Shown here: one piece after another, positions 2,216 to 43,135 of the stretch
How the letters are laid out: each line of letters starts with the position of its first letter
Numbering within the stretch: the stretch's first letter is position 1
Assembly: GCA_944331915.1 (NCBI GenBank)
Contig: CALVIR010000007.1
Location: 1 to 43,395 of the forward strand
Origin: an uncultured Bacilli bacterium
Lineage (GTDB): Bacteria > Bacillota_I > Bacilli_A > RF39 > UBA660
Length of the DNA: 43,395 bases
Reading direction: 5' to 3'
The notes under the pieces: generated by a model
Databases searched by the model: none
What the model was told of the DNA's origin: nothing
The model's input: the letters and a program-made list of their open reading frames with translations, nothing else
Translations under genes and position numbers: made by a program

Positions 2216-3319
2216 ATGCTAGATGTGGCTTTGAAAATGATAAATACAATTAGTGATAATGGTTATGAAGCTTATATTGTAGGAGGCTTTGTAAGAGACT
2301 ATTTAATGGGGAAAAAGTCAAACGATGTGGATATTACGACTAATGCTAAACCTAAAGAGTTGCTTGATATTTTCCCTACAGCAGTAATTGATAATGCAGA
2401 TTATGGGAGCGTGATAGTTTATTTTAAAGATATAAGATTTGAAATTACTACTTACAGGGTGGAAGAAAATTATTCTGATAATAGGCATCCTGATACAATT
2501 AGATATGTTAATAGTTTAGATGAAGACTTAAAGCGAAGAGACTTTACAATTAATACGATTTGTATTGATAAATTTGGTCAGGTATGTGATAAGTTGCAAG
2601 GAAAAGAAGATATAGAAAAACGGTTAATTAAAACAGTAGATGATCCATTTGTATCTTTTGCTCATGATGCACTTAGAATATTAAGAGCGATTAGATTTGC
2701 TACAACTTTAGATTTTGAACTTGATCCGGCAGTTAGAGAAGCGATAAAAGAAAATAAGTATTTATTAGATGAATTATCATTTAATCGAAAGAAGGAAGAG
2801 TTAAATAAAATATTTGGTAGTACTAATTTAATTAAAGGTGTTACCTTGATTAAAGACTTGGGATTAGAACATATTTTAAAACTTGATAAAATAGATAAAA
2901 TAAAAAATTGCAGTCAAGTAATTGGCGTTTGGACAATTTTAGAGGTTGATGATATATATCCTTTTACGAGAAATGAACTTAAATTAATGAAAGATATTAG
3001 AAAAGCACTTAAGAATAATCCTTTGAAGGCGGAAACCTTATATAAATATGATTTATATGTTTGTTCTGTAGCGGCAGAATTACTTGATATTCCTAAAAAA
3101 GATATTGCTAATGTTTATAGTAAAATGCCAATTCATAAAAGAGGGGATATCGTTATTGATACGCATGATATTATAGATCATTTAAAAATTGAGGAGGGTC
3201 CTATTATTAGTGAGATATGGGATAAGTTAGAAAATGCAATTTTAAATAATGAGGTTACTAATGATAAAAAACAGTTGCTTTCCCTAGTAGAAAAGATATA
3301 TACTAAATTAAGTAATTAA
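2216..3319 (+). CDS. cca: CCA-adding tRNA nucleotidyltransferase
   Basis: This cytoplasmic enzyme adds or repairs the 3' CCA of tRNAs from CTP and ATP without a template. The class II nucleotidyltransferase head is clear: GGFVRDYLMG (about 23-32), the metal-binding DVD (about 37-39), then RRDFTINTIC (about 112) and a neck region with HDALRILRAIRFATTLDFEL. At 367 residues it is shorter than many bacterial enzymes (about 400), mainly in the C-terminal body and tail. GTGGTGATAATT precedes ATG 2216. It begins an operon with dnaD (12-bp gap) and nth. It could be specialised for CC or A addition, but no second copy is visible here. Confidence 0.92.
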   Translation: MLDVALKMINTISDNGYEAYIVGGFVRDYLMGKKSNDVDITTNAKPKELLDIFPTAVIDNADYGSVIVYFKDIRFEITTYRVEENYSDNRHPDTIRYVNSLDEDLKRRDFTINTICIDKFGQVCDKLQGKEDIEKRLIKTVDDPFVSFAHDALRILRAIRFATTLDFELDPAVREAIKENKYLLDELSFNRKKEELNKIFGSTNLIKGVTLIKDLGLEHILKLDKIDKIKNCSQVIGVWTILEVDDIYPFTRNELKLMKDIRKALKNNPLKAETLYKYDLYVCSVAAELLDIPKKDIANVYSKMPIHKRGDIVIDTHDIIDHLKIEEGPIISEIWDKLENAILNNEVTNDKKQLLSLVEKIYTKLSN

Positions 3320-3331
3320 GGGAGGAGAATA

Positions 3332-3988
3332 ATGAAACAGCAATATTTGTTTAATCTTTTGACTGAAAAAAATATTGTAGTACCTTTAATATATTTTAAA
3401 CACTATAAAGAATTAAAGATAAATCTAGATGAGTTATTATTTTTGATGTATATAAAAGCAATGGGAACAAAAATAACTTTTAATCCTAGTAATATGGCTT
3501 TAGAGTTAGGACTAGATGTAAAAGATATTATGAGATTAGTTTCTAGTTTGACAGAGAAGAAATTACTTGTTATTAATACTTATAAAAACGATAAAGGAAT
3601 TATGGAAGAAGCTTTAGATATTTCCTTATTTTATGAAAAAGTTATGAGTTTAATATGTAATGATGCTTTAGAAGATAAACAGATAGATGATAGTATTTTT
3701 ACAACGATTGAAAAAGAATTTGGACGAACTTTAAGTTCAAGTGAGGTTGAATTTATTAAAGCTTGGGCTAGTAATTTTGATACAAGTCTTATTGCTAGTG
3801 CAGTTAAAGAGGCTACTCTTAATGGTGTACCTAGTGTTAGATATATTGATAGAATTCTTTATGAATGGGATAAAAAGGGGATAAAGAATGCAGATGATGT
3901 TAATCATTTCTTAAATAAAAAAGAGAAAGATTTAAAGGAACCAGTGGAGGTGTTTGATTATGACTGGTTTGATGATGAAGAAGAGTGA
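3332..3988 (+). CDS. dnaD: DnaD-like replication initiation protein
   Basis: This 218-residue protein has an N-terminal winged-helix-like part (about 1-105) and a C-terminal DnaD/DnaB2 domain: IEKEFGRTLSSSEVEFIKAW, then LIASAVKEATLNGVPSVRYIDRILYEW (about 128-185). The last segment matches the family's YxxxI helix. DnaD helps load the replicative helicase at oriC and during restart in Firmicutes. GGGAGGAG precedes ATG 3332. The dnaD-nth order is as in Bacillus. The acidic C-terminal tail ends WFDDEEE and overlaps the start of nth. TGG codes Trp four codons before the TGA stop. Confidence 0.9.
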   Translation: MKQQYLFNLLTEKNIVVPLIYFKHYKELKINLDELLFLMYIKAMGTKITFNPSNMALELGLDVKDIMRLVSSLTEKKLLVINTYKNDKGIMEEALDISLFYEKVMSLICNDALEDKQIDDSIFTTIEKEFGRTLSSSEVEFIKAWASNFDTSLIASAVKEATLNGVPSVRYIDRILYEWDKKGIKNADDVNHFLNKKEKDLKEPVEVFDYDWFDDEEE

Positions 3989-4613
3989 AAGAGTAGAGAA
4001 AATTGAGGAGTATTTAGAAGAGTTGTTTTTAGATCCTAAATGTGAACTTAATTATAATAATGATTATCAGTTGTTAATCGCGATAATGTTAAGTGCACAG
4101 ACAACGGATAAGAGAGTTAATATGGTAACAGATGTTTTGTTTACAAAGTATAATACTCTTGAAAAGTTAAAAAATGCTAATATAGAAGATTTAGAAACTA
4201 TTTTAAGACCTCTTGGATCATTTAGAAAGAAGGCTTTATATGTAAAAGAAATTGCAACTTTGCTTGTTGATAAATATCAGGGCAAAGTTCCAGTTGATAG
4301 AGATATTTTAGAGTCTTTTCCAGGAGTGGGCAGAAAGACAGTTAATGTATTTTTTAGTGAATTTTATCATCTTCCAGCGATAGCAGTTGACACTCATGTT
4401 GAAAGGGTTTCAAAAAGATTAGGGTTAGCGAAAGAAGAGGATAGTGTTAGAGAGGTAGAAGAAAAATTAAAGAAAGCATTTAAGAAAGAAGATTGGGCGA
4501 AAAGACATTTACAACTTGTACTTTTTGGAAGGTATCATTGTAAAGCGGTTAAACCTAGTTGTGATGATTGCAAATTAAAAGAAATATGTAAGTATCAAAA
4601 AAAGAAGCCTTGA
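3960..4613 (+). CDS. nth: Endonuclease III (DNA glycosylase/AP lyase)
   Basis: The enzyme removes oxidised pyrimidines and cleaves abasic sites in base-excision repair. Features: LSAQTTDKRVN, the helix-hairpin-helix FPGVGRKTVN with the catalytic Lys (about 126), AVDTHVERV with the catalytic Asp (about 144), and a C-terminal [4Fe-4S] cluster C-x6-C-x2-C-x5-C (about 194, 201, 204, 210). ATG 3960 is chosen because GGAGG at 3946-3950 lies upstream at usable spacing; ATGs at 3972/3975 are alternatives. The start lies inside the end of dnaD (29-bp overlap), suggesting translational coupling. The cluster would depend on Fe-S assembly such as the Suf operon at 23459-27845. Confidence 0.95.
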   Translation: MTGLMMKKSERVEKIEEYLEELFLDPKCELNYNNDYQLLIAIMLSAQTTDKRVNMVTDVLFTKYNTLEKLKNANIEDLETILRPLGSFRKKALYVKEIATLLVDKYQGKVPVDRDILESFPGVGRKTVNVFFSEFYHLPAIAVDTHVERVSKRLGLAKEEDSVREVEEKLKKAFKKEDWAKRHLQLVLFGRYHCKAVKPSCDDCKLKEICKYQKKKP

Positions 4614-4626
4614 GCTTCTTTTTTTA
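4599..4626. terminator. Bidirectional terminator between nth and ponA
   Basis: The perfect 10-bp stem AAAAAGAAGC/GCTTCTTTTT (4599-4608/4614-4623) has a 5-nt loop that contains the last two bases of the nth stop. There are T runs on both strands, so it serves both converging genes. Confidence 0.85.
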
Positions 4627-7548
4627 TGGACTAGTTTCTTCGGTAGGTGTTTCTCCTTCAGTACCACCACCGCCACTTGGAAGGTTTTCCGGTTCGATAG
4701 TAATTGTAATATTACCTGTTTCTTTAGTTTCACCATCATAAGTGAAACGATATCTTAATGTATAAGTTCCTGGTTCTGTTAAAGTAGTAATACTTGCATC
4801 AGTACTTGGCCCGGAGATACTAGATAGACGCCAGTTGCTGGTATCATCAGTTACATCTTCACCATTATTAGTAACGGTTATATAATCGGTGATACTACTA
4901 ATAGTAAATTTTGTAAAGGTTTGAGCAGATAATTTATTAGCATTAATACTTAGATTAGAACTTTTCTTTTCTAATTTATAAGTAGCAGCTTCACTATCAA
5001 GACCATCATATTTTCGATAAGTAGCGACAACTTTATAAGTTCCGTACGGATTAGATGGATTATTTATTGTATAAGTTGTATTAGTAGTAAAGCCTAATAG
5101 AGTGTTATTAAAGTAAACATTATAACCAAAGTCACCATAAGATGAATCTGTTACACCTGGATTAACACCAGTCCAAGTTAATATTACTTTACTATTATCA
5201 TAGGTTGCTACTAGGTTTGTTGGTTTAGAAAGATTACTTACGGCAGTACTGTTTTGAGGTTCATGACCTTTTTTAAATAGTTCATATATAACTGATCCAG
5301 TATAACCACTACCAGCGACACGAGCGGTACTACTGTTAGCGACAAGAGGAACACTTACAACACTATCTGGCATCGTGAATTCTTCTTTATCTTTTTCAAA
5401 AACCTCATTGGCTAAAGCGGTAAATAATCTATCACGTTGGACAGTTCCAGATAAGTTATGGCAGTAGTAACCTTGACTAACTAAATCAGCATTAGTTTTT
5501 TCATATCCATACCACATGGCAATAACGGTTTTAGTAGTATAACCAACAACCCAAGAATCTCTAATAGCATCATCTGCCATACCAAGACGTTCTCTTGTAG
5601 CGGCATCAAAGTTAGTAGTTCCAGTTTTCATAGAAACACGGTCCATTGCTCCGCCACCGGTAATACTGGTATCATCTAAGATACTTGTAATCATATAAGC
5701 GGTAGAGTCTTCCATTGCTTTAACTTTATTACTTTCATGTTCATATTCTTCACCAGTTTTAGTGAAGACAACTTTACTAACAGCATATGGTTCATTGTAG
5801 TAACCACCGTTAGAGAAAGCTGCATAGGCAGCGGCCATATCTAGAGAATTAACTCCAGTGAAAGCTCCTAAAGCGTGAGCTTCATGGATTTTACCATTTT
5901 CAATTTCAGGTTCAATACCTAGTTTTTGAACAAATTCGATAATCTTAGAATTATCTACTTGTTGGAAGGCTTTTAAAGCAGGAATATTACGAGATATTGA
6001 TAAGGCTTTACGCATTGTCATATTACCCATAAATTTACCATCCCAGTTATTAATAGCTTGTCCGTTAGAATATGAATAAGGTTCATCTACAAACATATGG
6101 TAGTTATCATTACCATCGTTATAACCAAAGGTTGAAGCGTTGTTATATTCAATTAATGGTCCATAATCAAATAATGGTTTAGCAGTTGATCCTGGTTGGC
6201 GTTTAATATCTTCACTAGTAGCAAAGTTTAAGGTATTAACTCCTTCTTTATTACGACCAGCTCCTACAGCTAAAATTTTACCAGTTTGACTATCTAAAAC
6301 AGTAACTCCACTTTGAATTACATCATTGACCCAGGTATAACTTTCACCGTTCATAACCCTGTTTACACCATCTTGTTTTTCTCTATCTAAGTTAGTATAG
6401 ATTTTCATTGGTTCAGTATATGGGTTTACCTCGTGATCAGCAGTACTATATTTTTCTTTAACCTCTTCAACAACAGTATCGATGTAGCCTTGATATTCAC
6501 TGTTTCCAGTTGTATCAGCACTAGCATTATAGTCAATTAAACTTTCAATACTAATAGAACTTGCCATTTCTCGTTCTTCAGAGGTGATATAGCCATGGCG
6601 TTCCATTAAGTATAAAACAGTATTTCTTCTAGCTGTTGCTGCTTCAATGTTATCCTCATCTAGAGGTCGATAAGCATTGGGAGCCTGAAACATTCCTGCG
6701 ATGAGACTGGCTTCAGCTAGGTTAAGATCTTGAATATCTTTATTAAAGTATACTTTAGCGGCTTGACTAACACCAAAGACATTTCCACCAAGACCATGGT
6801 TATTAACATAGAATTCAATTATTTGTTCTTTAGTATAGTTTTTTTCAAGTTTGAAGACAGCTAGATAGATATCTTGGAATTTTCTAACAATACCATCAAA
6901 ACCTTTTGCTACTCTTGAGGTAATTGAATTTTTAATAACTTGCATGGATAGGGTAGAAGCTCCACCGGCATCACTTTTACCAACTAATTGTCCAAGTGAT
7001 GCTTTTAAAAATCTTGGTGCATCAAAACCATTATGTTGGAAAAATCTTGAATCTTCAGTAGCAACTATGGCATCTACTAAAACCTCAGGTAAATCTTCAT
7101 AAGTTACTTTTTCTCTGATTTCACTTCCTAGTTTTGCAAATTCTTCACCATTAATATCATAAAGAACTGTTGGCTCATCACTATCTAGTTTTTCGGCATC
7201 AAATTTAGGATTTGCTGTTATAGCAATATAGATTAGGAAAACAATTCCAGCTAGCATAACAAGGATACCTAGGGAGAGAATAATAATTAAAATAGCATTA
7301 ACAATTTTTCGCTGCTTAGGTTTGTTTTTAACACAATCTAAAAGTTTGGCTATCCCAATAATGATTAAAAGTCCAACGGCCATAAAAGCAGTTACTAATA
7401 GGCCAAGAATAAAATAACTAATGACCATAAGGACTAAAAACATAATTGTAAAAATTAAAGTTATTTTTCTATTCTTAGGGTTTGTTCTTGGCTCACTTTT
7501 TGTTCTTGCCTTTTTAGTTTTAGGTTTTACATCTTTTTTCTTTTTCAT
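4624..7548 (-). CDS. ponA: Class A penicillin-binding protein (PBP1a-type)
   Basis: This bifunctional membrane enzyme polymerises glycan strands (GT51) and cross-links peptides. The N-terminus is basic, then there are hydrophobic blocks at about 29-70 and 82-112, more than the single span usual for PBP1a. GT51 carries ATEDSRFFQHNGFD (about 160) and STLSMQVIKN. The transpeptidase has STAK (about 450), SRN (about 515) and KTGT (about 640). The C-terminus has a fibronectin-III-like module (about 785-870) and an Ig-like module (about 880-955), ending in Gly/Thr/Glu-rich sequence. TGGAGG precedes ATG 7548 and overlaps the recU stop. The recU-ponA order is as in Bacillus. At 974 residues it is longer than average because of the extra modules. 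Confidence 0.95.
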   Translation of the reverse strand: MKKKKDVKPKTKKARTKSEPRTNPKNRKITLIFTIMFLVLMVISYFILGLLVTAFMAVGLLIIIGIAKLLDCVKNKPKQRKIVNAILIIILSLGILVMLAGIVFLIYIAITANPKFDAEKLDSDEPTVLYDINGEEFAKLGSEIREKVTYEDLPEVLVDAIVATEDSRFFQHNGFDAPRFLKASLGQLVGKSDAGGASTLSMQVIKNSITSRVAKGFDGIVRKFQDIYLAVFKLEKNYTKEQIIEFYVNNHGLGGNVFGVSQAAKVYFNKDIQDLNLAEASLIAGMFQAPNAYRPLDEDNIEAATARRNTVLYLMERHGYITSEEREMASSISIESLIDYNASADTTGNSEYQGYIDTVVEEVKEKYSTADHEVNPYTEPMKIYTNLDREKQDGVNRVMNGESYTWVNDVIQSGVTVLDSQTGKILAVGAGRNKEGVNTLNFATSEDIKRQPGSTAKPLFDYGPLIEYNNASTFGYNDGNDNYHMFVDEPYSYSNGQAINNWDGKFMGNMTMRKALSISRNIPALKAFQQVDNSKIIEFVQKLGIEPEIENGKIHEAHALGAFTGVNSLDMAAAYAAFSNGGYYNEPYAVSKVVFTKTGEEYEHESNKVKAMEDSTAYMITSILDDTSITGGGAMDRVSMKTGTTNFDAATRERLGMADDAIRDSWVVGYTTKTVIAMWYGYEKTNADLVSQGYYCHNLSGTVQRDRLFTALANEVFEKDKEEFTMPDSVVSVPLVANSSTARVAGSGYTGSVIYELFKKGHEPQNSTAVSNLSKPTNLVATYDNSKVILTWTGVNPGVTDSSYGDFGYNVYFNNTLLGFTTNTTYTINNPSNPYGTYKVVATYRKYDGLDSEAATYKLEKKSSNLSINANKLSAQTFTKFTISSITDYITVTNNGEDVTDDTSNWRLSSISGPSTDASITTLTEPGTYTLRYRFTYDGETKETGNITITIEPENLPSGGGGTEGETPTEETSP

Positions 7549-9562: not shown

Positions 9563-9913
9563 TATTTTAGACAAGTGCTGGAATTAGTTTAATTCTAGAG
9601 GAAAGTCCATGCTCACACAGTCCTGTGATGGCTGTAGTGTTCGTGCTTAAGGAAAAAATAACTTAAGGTAATGTTTTTACATTAACGGCGGTTTAGCACC
9701 TAAGGATATTTCTATGGTGATTAACTGTAAAGTGCCACAGTGACGAATTTTTAGGAAACTAAAAAGTGAAACGCGGTAAACCCCACGAGTGAGAAACCTA
9801 AATTATGGTAGGGGAGTCTTAATAAGAAGAAATGAATTCTTTTAAGGACTAGAAATAGTAGATAGATACTTGTCACCTAGCAATAGGTACAGAACATGGC
9901 TTATTAAATATTA
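9560..9913 (+). ncRNA. rnpB: RNase P RNA (bacterial type B)
   Basis: This is the catalytic RNA that trims tRNA 5' leaders. Conserved blocks are readable: AGAGGAAAGTCCATGCTC (about 9597), AAAGTGCCACAGTGACGAA (9729-9747), GAAACGCGGTAAACCCCA (about 9767), GGTAGGGGA (about 9808) and ACAGAACATGGCTTA (9889-9903). Layout and order match the Bacillus-type RNA. The closing P1 helix can be assigned: 9560-9567 (TAATATTT) pairs perfectly with 9906-9913 (AAATATTA). P1 starts on the TAA of gpsB, so the protein and RNA genes abut or overlap. Ends are good to a few bases. No separate promoter is obvious, so processing from a gpsB transcript is possible. Confidence 0.96.
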
Positions 9914-29501: not shown

Positions 29502-31190
29502 ATGGTGCATAAGAAAGAAAAAATAATAATTTTAAGTTTAATATTAATATTGATAATAGCAGTAATAGGAGTAAGTTATGCAGCTTTTAGTTATACAGGA
29601 ACTGGTAAGACAGTTAACAGTATCACTACAGGTGCAATTACGATGACTTATACAGAAAGTGATAATGTCATTATGATGGATGAAGCCTTACCAACCACAG
29701 ATAAAACAGGAACAGTAAGATTAAAAGAAGGAGAGTACTTTGATTTTACGATATCAAGTAATATCATAGGTAATGTTAATATCAACTATGAGATAAGTGC
29801 TAAAGAAGTAGGAAATGGAACAATAGATGGAGAAAATATTAAGTTATATTTAACAAGATTAAAAAGCGATGGTAGTGAAGAAGCATTAATGGTACCAGAG
29901 ACTTATAGTGAAGAAGCAAGTGCCAATAGTTATACCGGAAGACCATCAGGAGAGATGAGTTTATATACAAATAGTATGAATAGTAGTGAAAGTAATAATT
30001 ATCGTCTTAGAATGTATGTAACAGAAGAATACAATCCACAAGGAGATGGAGGGGGGTTAACCTTCTCAGTTCAAATAAATGTCTATGGTAAAGATGGAGA
30101 TAAATATGTGCCAGAGACAACAGAGACAATATTAGCTAATAACCCTTTACAAGAAGATAAAACTAATATGTTCAATTATGCTAGTAATGGAGATATCCTA
30201 ACAGATCCTCTACGTATGGAGATAGAAAATGATCCAGAATATGTAACTAATGGCTTATATCAGTTGGCTGATGAAGATGGCGTAAGTTACTATTTTAGAG
30301 GTGATGTAACTAATAATAATGTAAGATTTGGAAAGTATACAGATGATTACTATGTTTATACTGATGGTGGTCTTAGGCATTTTCAGAGTTTAGAAAGTTG
30401 TGTTGATGCTTTAGGTAGTTCAGAACATTGTACACCTTTAAAGTTAGCATCACAAGGTGATGATATGTACTGGAAAATAGTAAGAGTAAATGGTGATGGT
30501 AGTTTAAGATTGATTTATAATGGAACAAGTGCAGAACCAACAAATACTGATATAGTTGATTCTTACGTTATAGGATATACGTCATATAACTCTTATATGG
30601 ATGATGCAAAATATACAGGATATACTTATGATAATGGAACTGACTCATTTATTAAGAAAGAGATTGATACATGGTATAAGAATACTTTAGGAAATAGTAG
30701 CTATGATGATATGGTAATAGGAGGAAGGTTCTGTAGTGATAGTAGTGGTTATAAACTTGGAACTGATTATGGACTTTCTATTATAAATTATAATGTTTTT
30801 GCAAGTTATGATAGATTAGGACAAGCAATTTCTAATTTTAGTAAAGCTAATGCACCAACTCTGAAATGTCCTGTAACAAATGAAAGTTATGGAGGAGATT
30901 ACAGATTAAAAGCAGGATTAATAACAGCAGATGAGATGGTGTTAGCAGGAGAGAATATGTATTTAAGTGGAAATAGCTATTTAAATGTAAAAGATAGCAG
31001 TGCATATTATTGGACGATGACACCATCATCTTTTAATAATAATGGTTCTGGTTGGTATCAATCTAATAGTATTTATGTTAGTTTAATTAGTGATATTCGG
31101 GCGGTTAGACCGGTTATAAATGTTATGGCTAATACTGATTTTGTTAGTGGTGATGGAACAATAGATAATCCATACGTATTATCTGTTTAA
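29502..31190 (+). CDS. Exported surface protein with TasA/camelysin-like N-terminus
   Basis: This 562-residue protein has an N-terminal signal/anchor helix (about 5-27) ending GVSYAAFSYTGTGKTVNSIT, the arrangement seen in TasA/CalY-type secreted fibre proteins. A beta-rich domain (about 30-195) follows. A second region (about 240-562) holds paired cysteines and a C-terminal segment ending YYWTMTPSSF, then DIRAVRPVINV and GTIDNPYVLSV. The ending is shared in form with the protein at 41678 (GSLSDPYQLEL), so the two are paralogues. Predicted to be cell-surface or secreted; no sorting signal is present. GGAGG precedes ATG 29502. It has its own promoter and terminator. Function is unknown, perhaps matrix or adhesion. 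Confidence 0.75.
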   Translation: MVHKKEKIIILSLILILIIAVIGVSYAAFSYTGTGKTVNSITTGAITMTYTESDNVIMMDEALPTTDKTGTVRLKEGEYFDFTISSNIIGNVNINYEISAKEVGNGTIDGENIKLYLTRLKSDGSEEALMVPETYSEEASANSYTGRPSGEMSLYTNSMNSSESNNYRLRMYVTEEYNPQGDGGGLTFSVQINVYGKDGDKYVPETTETILANNPLQEDKTNMFNYASNGDILTDPLRMEIENDPEYVTNGLYQLADEDGVSYYFRGDVTNNNVRFGKYTDDYYVYTDGGLRHFQSLESCVDALGSSEHCTPLKLASQGDDMYWKIVRVNGDGSLRLIYNGTSAEPTNTDIVDSYVIGYTSYNSYMDDAKYTGYTYDNGTDSFIKKEIDTWYKNTLGNSSYDDMVIGGRFCSDSSGYKLGTDYGLSIINYNVFASYDRLGQAISNFSKANAPTLKCPVTNESYGGDYRLKAGLITADEMVLAGENMYLSGNSYLNVKDSSAYYWTMTPSSFNNNGSGWYQSNSIYVSLISDIRAVRPVINVMANTDFVSGDGTIDNPYVLSV

Positions 31191-41476: not shown

Positions 41477-41504
41477 TTGTATTCTAGGTAATTAGTATGA
41501 TAAT
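41477..41504 (+). promoter_or_regulatory. Possible promoter of the poly-G leader transcript
   Basis: TTGTAT (41477-41482), a 16-nt spacer and GATAAT (41499-41504). Transcription would start near 41511, about 30 nt before the leader ORF. Confidence 0.45.
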
Positions 41505-41539
41505 ATTGATATAGAACAAATAGAAAGAAGGTATGAAAA

Positions 41540-41599
41540 ATGCAAGCTAGCATCCGTTTACAAATAGTTACCTGGGGGGGGGGGACTTTAGAAGCTTAA
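41540..41599 (+). CDS. Putative 19-residue leader peptide containing the poly-G tract
   Basis: ATG 41540 follows AGAAGG (41526-41531) at 8-nt spacing and reads MQASIRLQIVTWGGGTLEA, stop 41597-41599. The 11-G tract (41574-41584) falls in the codons for Trp and three Gly. With one more G the frame would continue to TAG at 41632-41634, across the 5' arm of the terminator at 41622. With one fewer it would stop at once (TTTAG). This frame behaviour is read directly from the sequence; that the ORF is translated is inference. An earlier ATG at 41533 gives only a 5-codon ORF. Confidence 0.4.
   Translation: MQASIRLQIVTWGGGTLEA
41574..41584 (+). repeat. Homopolymeric tract of 11 G
   Basis: Eleven consecutive G in a region that is otherwise strongly AT-rich. 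Such tracts change length by slipped-strand mispairing and are classic phase-variation switches. The exact length may be miscalled in sequencing. Confidence 0.9.
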
Positions 41600-41621
41600 G
41601 TACTTTCTTTAATCGTGGAAT

Positions 41622-41656
41622 AAGAACAGGATAGAAGGATTCTGTTCTTTTTTTGG
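41622..41656 (+). terminator. Intrinsic terminator (possible attenuator) before the surface-protein gene
   Basis: The perfect 8-bp stem AAGAACAG/CTGTTCTT (41622-41629/41642-41649) has a 12-nt loop and a run of T to 41654. It lies between the leader ORF and the gene at 41678, in the same direction, so it would cut the transcript short unless disrupted. Confidence 0.75.
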
Positions 41657-41677
41657 TTAAATGAAAGGTGTAAAAAA

Positions 41678-43135
41678 ATGAAAAGACTATTATTAAATAC
41701 TAAAGTATCAAAAATATATATAATAAGTGTAATACTAATAACTTTATTACTATTAGCAAGTTATTATTCGTATGCGATGTTTACTGTAAGTAAAGAAAAA
41801 AATAATGCGATAAGTATTGTGACAGGGACATTAAGTTATGATTTGAAAATTGATGGAGTTAGTACAGATGAAATAGTAGTAAATGCGTTGGATACAGCTA
41901 CATTTACTGTTACTTTAAGTAATCCTAATGAGAGAATAGCAAGATTTAATTTTTATTATATAGGTGAGGTAGATGAAGGAGTAAAGATGGGGTATTTAGA
42001 AGGAGATAATAGAAATATTCCTCCTAATGCTTCAGGAGTAAATTTAACAGCTAAAGATTCGATTGGGAGTGTTAATACATATTTAATTACAGTTTTCAAT
42101 TCTACTTTGGTGACACAAACTATTAAAATTGGTGTGCAAGTGGGACTAGATTATAATAATTTGAGTTTACCTAGTGATGGACATTTGTTTCAAAAATATG
42201 ATTTATTAGCAGACGAGGCTTTAAAGATTAAAGCAACATTAGATGATGATGTATTAAGAACTAAGGAATTATATCTTTTTTCTCAAGAAAAAACTATGCA
42301 AACAGATCAAATAATTGATTATCGTTATATTGGTAGTGAACCAAATAATTATATATATTTTAATGATGAATTATGGCGTATAATAGGTGTTTTTACTGTT
42401 GATGATGGAACAGGAAAGGAAGAAGAACGATTAAAGATAATGAGTAATACGGGTATTTATGGGGTGTCTTTTGATAATACGGGTGAATATGGTAATAGTG
42501 ATTTTGTTAATTCTTCATTAAATCATCTGTTAAATGAAGGGCATGAAAATGAAGAGATTGGTGGCAGTCTTTATTGGAATAGAGCTAGTGGTATTTGCTA
42601 CAATGGTATAAATAATGCTACTAGTACTTGTGATTTTACAACAGTAGGGTTGCTAGATGATGCTAAAAAAATGATTGATAATAGTGTTTGGTATCTTGGA
42701 GGAGTGGCTGATATTTATGTAACACCAATTGAATTTTATAATTATGAACGTGGTAATTTAACTTATAATAATGAAAGGCAAATAAGCTGGACAGGAAAAG
42801 TTGGACTTATTTATCCTTCTGATTATGGTTTTGCAACTAGTGGTGGAGCTAATACCTCAAGAGAAGAATGCTATAATAATTATTTATATTCATGGGCAAG
42901 TGATTGCTATAATAATAATTGGATTTATAAGATTGAGTCTAATATGAAAGTTACCATTACGGCTTCTTCTGAGTTTGTAAATAGAATATTTCATGTTAAT
43001 AATGCAGGATATCTTACAACAACTTATCCTTACTATAGTGATACAGTTTTTCCTACGGTTTATTTGAAACAAAAAATAATAATAACTAATGGAAATGGTA
43101 GTCTTAGTGATCCTTATCAATTAGAATTGTTATAA
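41678..43135 (+). CDS. Exported surface protein, paralogue of the one at 29502
   Basis: This 485-residue protein has an N-terminal signal/anchor helix (about 12-33) then YSYAMFTVSKEKNNAISIVT, the same plan as the protein at 29502 (SYAAF, then TGAI-like). A beta-rich domain (about 40-165) carries FTVTLSNPNERIARFNFYYI. A second region has ELWRIIGVF and cysteine pairs (SGICYNG, TSTCDF, REECYNN, ASDCYNN), followed by an ending VYLKQKIIITNGNGSLSDPY. No LPXTG signal is present. AAAGGTG precedes ATG 41678. Its only visible promoter is upstream of the poly-G leader and terminator, so expression may be phase-variable. Function is unknown; secreted or surface-exposed is likely. Confidence 0.72.
   Translation: MKRLLLNTKVSKIYIISVILITLLLLASYYSYAMFTVSKEKNNAISIVTGTLSYDLKIDGVSTDEIVVNALDTATFTVTLSNPNERIARFNFYYIGEVDEGVKMGYLEGDNRNIPPNASGVNLTAKDSIGSVNTYLITVFNSTLVTQTIKIGVQVGLDYNNLSLPSDGHLFQKYDLLADEALKIKATLDDDVLRTKELYLFSQEKTMQTDQIIDYRYIGSEPNNYIYFNDELWRIIGVFTVDDGTGKEEERLKIMSNTGIYGVSFDNTGEYGNSDFVNSSLNHLLNEGHENEEIGGSLYWNRASGICYNGINNATSTCDFTTVGLLDDAKKMIDNSVWYLGGVADIYVTPIEFYNYERGNLTYNNERQISWTGKVGLIYPSDYGFATSGGANTSREECYNNYLYSWASDCYNNNWIYKIESNMKVTITASSEFVNRIFHVNNAGYLTTTYPYYSDTVFPTVYLKQKIIITNGNGSLSDPYQLELL

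Follow-up and report, generated by a model that had tools for sequence, protein, structure and literature searches.

Poly-G leader reading frames as candidate phase-variable transcription attenuators of a surface-protein family in uncultured gut Bacilli

Phase variation through poly-G tracts is well known from the contingency genes of Campylobacter, Neisseria and Helicobacter, wherein the tract usually resides in the coding sequence, the promoter or the 5′ UTR. Translation-coupled attenuation is likewise familiar from biosynthetic operons of the trp type, for which the position of a ribosome on the leader decides if a terminator forms. In Streptococcus gallolyticus, GCAGA repeats within a leader ORF switch pilus genes, as demonstrated by mutation and by a single-cell assay (Danne et al., 2014; PMC3894217). 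At the pil1 and pil3 loci of this species, the short leader peptide ends at least 28 nt before the terminator (OFF), and the long one has its end at the terminator, within it or beyond it (ON). Control is exerted through ribosome-induced destabilization of the terminator, and its dependence on translation was established experimentally (PMC3894217).

Here we describe a leader of related design in the window, by which we mean the whole stretch of 43,395 nucleotides that was analyzed. This DNA belongs to the 1.37 Mb genome of a Candidatus Onthousia-type member of the Bacilli, whose genus is known from gut metagenomes. A class B bacterial RNase P RNA at window positions 9563-9908 (+) fits this assignment to Bacilli. 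The leader and the gene that it precedes carry the following features:

41477-41482, +: −35 element of the leader promoter, TTGTAT, read from the sequence
41498-41506, +: extended −10 element of the leader promoter, TG-A-TAATAT, read from the sequence
41522-41531, +: SD AGAAAGAAGG of the leader ORF, read from the sequence
41523-41534, +: SD region of the leader ORF that pairs with the anti-SD segment in the MFE and centroid folds
41540-41599, +: leader ORF of 19 codons at 11 G, MQASIRLQIVTWGGGTLEA and stop, in the OFF-B phase (ATG 41540, TAA 41597-41599)
41556-41575, +: conserved nucleotide motif GTTTACAANNNGTTACCTGG, 5′ of the tract, from comparison of copies
41574-41584, +: slippery tract of 11 G, read from the sequence (10 G in the twin locus L061 of genome G031)
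41585-41634, +: ON-frame extension DFRSLSTFFNRGIRTG and stop, which needs 12 or 9 G (TAG 41632-41634 within the hairpin)
41600-41611, +: anti-SD segment GTACTTTCTTTA, from the fold and comparison of copies
41622-41654, +: predicted intrinsic terminator, with a stem-loop at 41622-41649 and a T run, from a terminator scan
41678-43135, +: putatively controlled gene for a predicted surface-type protein of 485 aa (ATG 41678; AlphaFold2 model)

The terminator scan found one such site where shuffled sequences yield 0.1. A strict consensus scan of the window left the leader promoter unscored; among the genus copies described below, a −10-like element is present 5′ of 153 of 159 leaders. Frames checked by hand reveal that the number of G residues determines where translation of the leader would end. 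The assembled length of 11 G leads to the TAA at 41597-41599 (OFF-B), 10 G leads to a TAG at 41589-41591 (OFF-A), and either 12 or 9 G permits read-through to the TAG at 41632-41634, which lies in the hairpin beyond its outer 5′ arm (ON). The assembled state of the window locus is thus OFF. The original prediction, made from this sequence alone, had recognized the G tract inside a 19-codon ORF with a ribosome-binding site, the hairpin terminator and the surface gene starting at 41678, and had proposed that only one phase in three would carry a ribosome into the stem. The elements and frames are borne out by the sequence, with stops at 41599, 41591 and 41634 depending on the number of G residues, except that the gap between the present stop and the stem is 22 nt rather than 23.

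On every feature that can be compared by sequence, the present system appears to match that of S. gallolyticus. As with pil1 and pil3, a simple repeat is located in a leader ORF, repeat number sets the frame, and the genes presumably under control concern the cell surface. The repeat lies in a translated-looking ORF 3′ of a promoter, its number differs between otherwise identical loci with a resulting change of frame, the OFF stop occurs well before the terminator and the ON stop at, in or past it, and the downstream gene encodes a surface-type protein with a predicted surface location. The two systems also differ. S. gallolyticus uses a pentanucleotide, GCAGA (22 units in the type strain), at two pilus loci with two of three phases ON, whereas the leaders described here use a single-base G tract at about 18 loci per genome and in more than 160 copies in the genus, with one of three phases ON, and they carry in addition the anti-SD segment and the conserved motif before the tract. 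We found no evidence for common descent of the two.

The poly-G systems of Campylobacter, Neisseria and Helicobacter resemble the present one in having slippage-prone G tracts of comparable length that switch surface functions, but here the tract occupies a separate leader ORF and would act via transcription termination. As in trp-type attenuation, the position of the leader ribosome would be decisive; unlike in that case, there is no regulatory codon run matched to the operon, and the frame, not the supply of an amino acid, would decide. An amino-acid-sensing attenuator was considered and rejected on the grounds that the downstream genes encode surface proteins, that no amino-acid constraint exists after the tract, and that the fold of the window leader contains no structure competing with the terminator. 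Also rejected was a known Rfam cis-regulatory RNA, as RNase P is the only Rfam match in the window. The mechanism is not new to biology; what would be new is its homopolymeric, genus-wide form. The notion that such switching was undescribed in this lineage holds insofar as the open-access literature searched contains no report for it, but the mechanism itself had already been demonstrated for S. gallolyticus pili (PMC3894217).

The locus had originally been treated as a single case, yet it is one of about 18 such leaders in its genome. A 401-base query gave 24 matches in the same 1.37 Mb genome, with leader copies located 5′ of related genes, and all runs of at least eight G residues in this genome (13 of 13) fall inside copies of the leader. 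A search of 34 other genomes from the genus gave at least one match in 32; the exceptions are G005 and G018, the latter of which nevertheless carries a diverged version. In the sister-genus genome G036, both G9 runs occur in leaders of like design with one frame open through the terminator. The pattern is absent from the viral contigs searched. We scored 166 distinct copies from about 50 genomes. Three further copies, from the diverged genomes G018 and G002, were excluded because their anchor was misplaced, and about 30 matches that were diverged or truncated were left unscored. The layout recurs throughout this set, with an in-frame ATG open into the tract in 159 copies and a hairpin with a T run in all 166. 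Because of this recurrence, and because the long G runs of the genome are confined to leaders, the layout is not due to chance.

The reading frame in phase with the terminator side, the ON frame, runs uninterrupted between the tract and its own terminal stop in 166 of 166 copies, and not one of its 3078 codons is a stop. When the same bases are read in the other two frames, 414 and 552 stops occur, and no copy has either frame open. To account for kinship, independent sister pairs were compared and the analysis was conditioned on the sites that had actually changed (286 changes). From the observed substitutions, 12.1 stops would be expected in the ON frame and none was seen, whereas the two control frames had 13.5 stops for 12.7 expected and 22.0 for 22.3 expected. 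The control frames therefore behave as neutral sequence and the ON frame does not. Changes after the tract are distributed evenly over codon positions one, two and three (93, 101 and 92), and codons with a single change are synonymous in 45 of 187 cases (24%, with 19% expected by chance). Since the changes are equal over codon positions, selection seems to act on the passage of ribosomes and not on a peptide; an open frame free of constraint on its sequence is expected if the passage of ribosomes is what matters. In the 5′ portion of the leader ORF, for which few data are available, the changes show no bias by codon position (12, 17 and 16), and no stop occurs where 3.3 are expected.

In 163 of 166 copies the ON stop is in the terminator stem or loop, overlapping the 5′ arm in 148 and the loop in 15; it precedes the arm in two and lies beyond in one. 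OFF stops are located a median of 33 nt 5′ of the arm. Judging from the size of its footprint, a ribosome halted at the ON stop would sit over the arm, and one at an OFF stop would leave it free.

Tract lengths were taken from assemblies, with one genome for each species, in which homopolymer counts can err. Among leaders from different genomes, almost every one of the closest pairs shows a difference in the number of G residues. The window locus and its twin L061 have 11 and 10 G, respectively, with no differences at 187 flanking positions. Similarly, L183 has 9 G (ON) where L106 has 10 G (OFF), and L104 has 11 G (ON) where L143 has 9 G (OFF); as with the window twin, the tract lengths in these pairs differ without substitutions in the flanks, although L183 and L106 are distinguished by one in-frame repeat difference upstream. 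Leaders such as L183 and L106 carry different numbers of a 24-base repeat of the GGTAAAATAAATCGTCAATTCCAG kind toward the 5′ end of the ORF, and the frame is kept. Among the relatives compared, tract length is not fixed: it differs between otherwise identical loci, that of the window included, in a manner that shifts the phase. Over all 166 copies, 144 are OFF (100 OFF-A and 44 OFF-B) and 22 are ON, and in the window genome all 17 scored copies are OFF. An ON fraction below one third needs selection or a mutational bias, and this counts against a switch driven by slippage.

Two further elements of the leader are conserved. The SD of the leader is complementary to the segment between tract and terminator, and in both the MFE and centroid folds of the window leader it pairs with 41600-41610 over 11 bp. 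In the comparison of copies, 94% of cells pair in the SD:anti-SD register versus 52-67% in shifted registers. In leader L128 of the diverged genome G028 both sides have changed together, to GAAAGTAGG with CCTACTTTC (as read by eye). However, the variation is mostly A/G opposite U on one side, such that true two-sided covariation is limited, and native duplexes are only modestly better than swapped ones (−13.0 versus −12.5 kcal/mol). The anti-SD segment likely serves to close the leader when no ribosome passes. The second element is the motif GTTTACAANNNGTTACCTGG, whose codons are almost invariant in all copies, third positions included, except for one free NNN codon in its middle. L127 and G018 have nearly the same letters in a different reading frame. 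Given the fixed third positions, the free codon and the difference in frame, the motif is probably conserved as nucleic acid and not as peptide.

Of the 152 genes found downstream of these leaders, 148 belong to one homologous family. The model of the window protein (AlphaFold2, pLDDT 80.6) has an N-terminal membrane helix, an Ig-like beta ectodomain and a further domain, from which we regard it as surface-type with a predicted surface location. Sequence searches of Pfam, NCBIfam and PDB gave no firm family, and the best Foldseek match, to a structure of an IgA peptidase from Thomasclavelia ramosa, is partial (TM 0.34), and we assign no function from it. Some family members in the genome, such as that at window positions 29502-31190, have an ordinary promoter and no leader.

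A phase-variable transcription attenuator is very probably the best explanation for these observations. Comparison among copies documents the conserved layout, the selected open frame and the differences in tract length; translation, termination, read-through and switching within a population are inferred. We envision that transcription from the promoter yields a short leader ORF that is preceded by a strong ribosome-binding site and contains a G tract. Replication slippage would add G residues to the tract or remove them, as the length differences between twins suggest. In two of the three phases, the ribosome would stop approximately 20-50 nt before the terminator, which would then fold and keep the surface gene off. 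In the third, it would stop inside the terminator stem and prevent folding, so that RNA polymerase could enter the surface gene. The anti-SD segment would close the leader when ribosomes do not pass and be covered by them in the ON phase. At the window locus, 11 G would correspond to OFF and 12 or 9 G to ON, and each of the about 18 leaders in the genome could independently switch one member of a single surface-protein family. That slippage acts through a leader ORF and attenuation was the central idea of the original prediction, and the comparative data strongly support it: the read-through frame stays open in every copy and stops in the terminator, and tract length differs between otherwise identical loci.

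The alternative that deserves most attention, unlikely as we judge it to be, is programmed frameshifting. The G tract might be slippery for the ribosome (or for RNA polymerase), such that some passages, possibly adjusted by a signal, would shift to the read-through frame and cause antitermination, with changes in DNA length a side effect. The ON phase is the rarest, and absent among the scored copies of the window genome, yet its frame is kept everywhere. Moreover, the 22 copies with short or interrupted tracts, which are expected to slip little, still keep it open, a point that also weighs against the attenuator reading. Compared with the long-tract copies closest to them, those with 4-7 G or an interruption have 89 differences, none of which creates an ON-frame stop; this is suggestive but not decisive. 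Given the scarcity of ON copies and the frame that short-tract copies keep open, ribosomal frameshifting may act as a partner mechanism. Against frameshifting as the whole explanation, copies occur in all three phases and would need shifts in opposite directions, twins differ in tract length, and some copies retain an open frame on the terminator side in spite of out-of-frame indels 3′ of the tract, as fits a floating phase. The two mechanisms could be combined in a self-gating bistable switch over the whole surface-protein repertoire, in which slippage would determine the phase, and the anti-SD clamp, together with a low rate of ribosomal frameshifting, would leave OFF copies leaky or responsive to signals. 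We offer this tentatively and consider it unlikely; if true, phase variation and programmed frameshifting would cooperate so that few members are on at once.

Other explanations fare less well. Conserved SD:anti-SD pairing, third-position conservation in the motif adjoining the tract and a terminator in every copy would all suit a cis-regulatory RNA that senses a ligand or protein through clamp and terminator, with the G tract as a structural or binding element. Such a role at the RNA level only is improbable, as it predicts neither a single stop-free frame beside others that gain stops at the neutral rate nor an ON stop located in the terminator, and the leader has no Rfam match. A recurrent small ORF with promoter, ribosome-binding site and terminator could also produce a functional small peptide from its long frame, under ordinary phase variation and with its own terminator. 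The lack of codon-position bias and the near-chance synonymous fraction reveal no amino-acid constraint and lead us to reject a functional ON peptide, and the stop resides inside the terminator stem instead of before it, making this reading very improbable. Least probable of all, by a small step, is an artefact of homopolymer sequencing or assembly. The genomes are MAG assemblies and G tracts are error-prone, but the frame-openness signal is independent of tract lengths and copies were assembled independently in several studies.

In the open-access literature that we found, phase-variable attenuation is known from the two S. gallolyticus pilus loci. The leaders described above suggest that, across a whole genus of gut bacteria not yet cultured, it is the usual means of controlling a large family of surface proteins. 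In their more than 160 natural variants, selection on the passage of ribosomes can be told apart from selection on any peptide, and the way in which translation of a leader counteracts termination could be tested on this natural collection. The tract lengths found in metagenomes would also allow surface state to be predicted.

A diversity-generating retroelement also targets at least one of the genes that carry a leader, so that on/off switching and sequence diversification may act within one family. The element accompanies L262 (G000:C20; positions 1855-1936, 2131-2212, 3067-3849, 4347-5666 and 5731-6090). Its variable repeat is at the end of the surface gene; the template repeat follows after 276 bases, and 20 of the 24 mismatches are at A residues of the template. 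A group II intron ORF seems to interrupt the reverse transcriptase, and the tract of the leader is interrupted (GGAGGGGGG).

L150, L208 and L224 carry a MITE-like insertion (CAGTTTTTATCCTTAAGCATAAAAACTG...) within the leader, immediately 3′ of the G tract. Leader pairs such as L175/L143 and L151/L115, each from different genomes, have identical upstream halves and diverged downstream halves, as if recombination joined promoters and surface genes at the tract. In L114, L126 and L127, what comes after the motif and G tract is a GA/CT-rich hairpin that lacks a T run and lies directly 5′ of the gene, which suggests another output of the same tract. Finally, runs of 9-10 G in L072-L077 of the sister-genus genome G035 belong to a different element, consisting of a palindrome (e.g. 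TGTGCAATATGCACAC), the G run and TAAATATTTACCCCTCTTTTTT, in which the G run would itself serve as the 5′ arm of a terminator in front of genes that include pilin-like ones.
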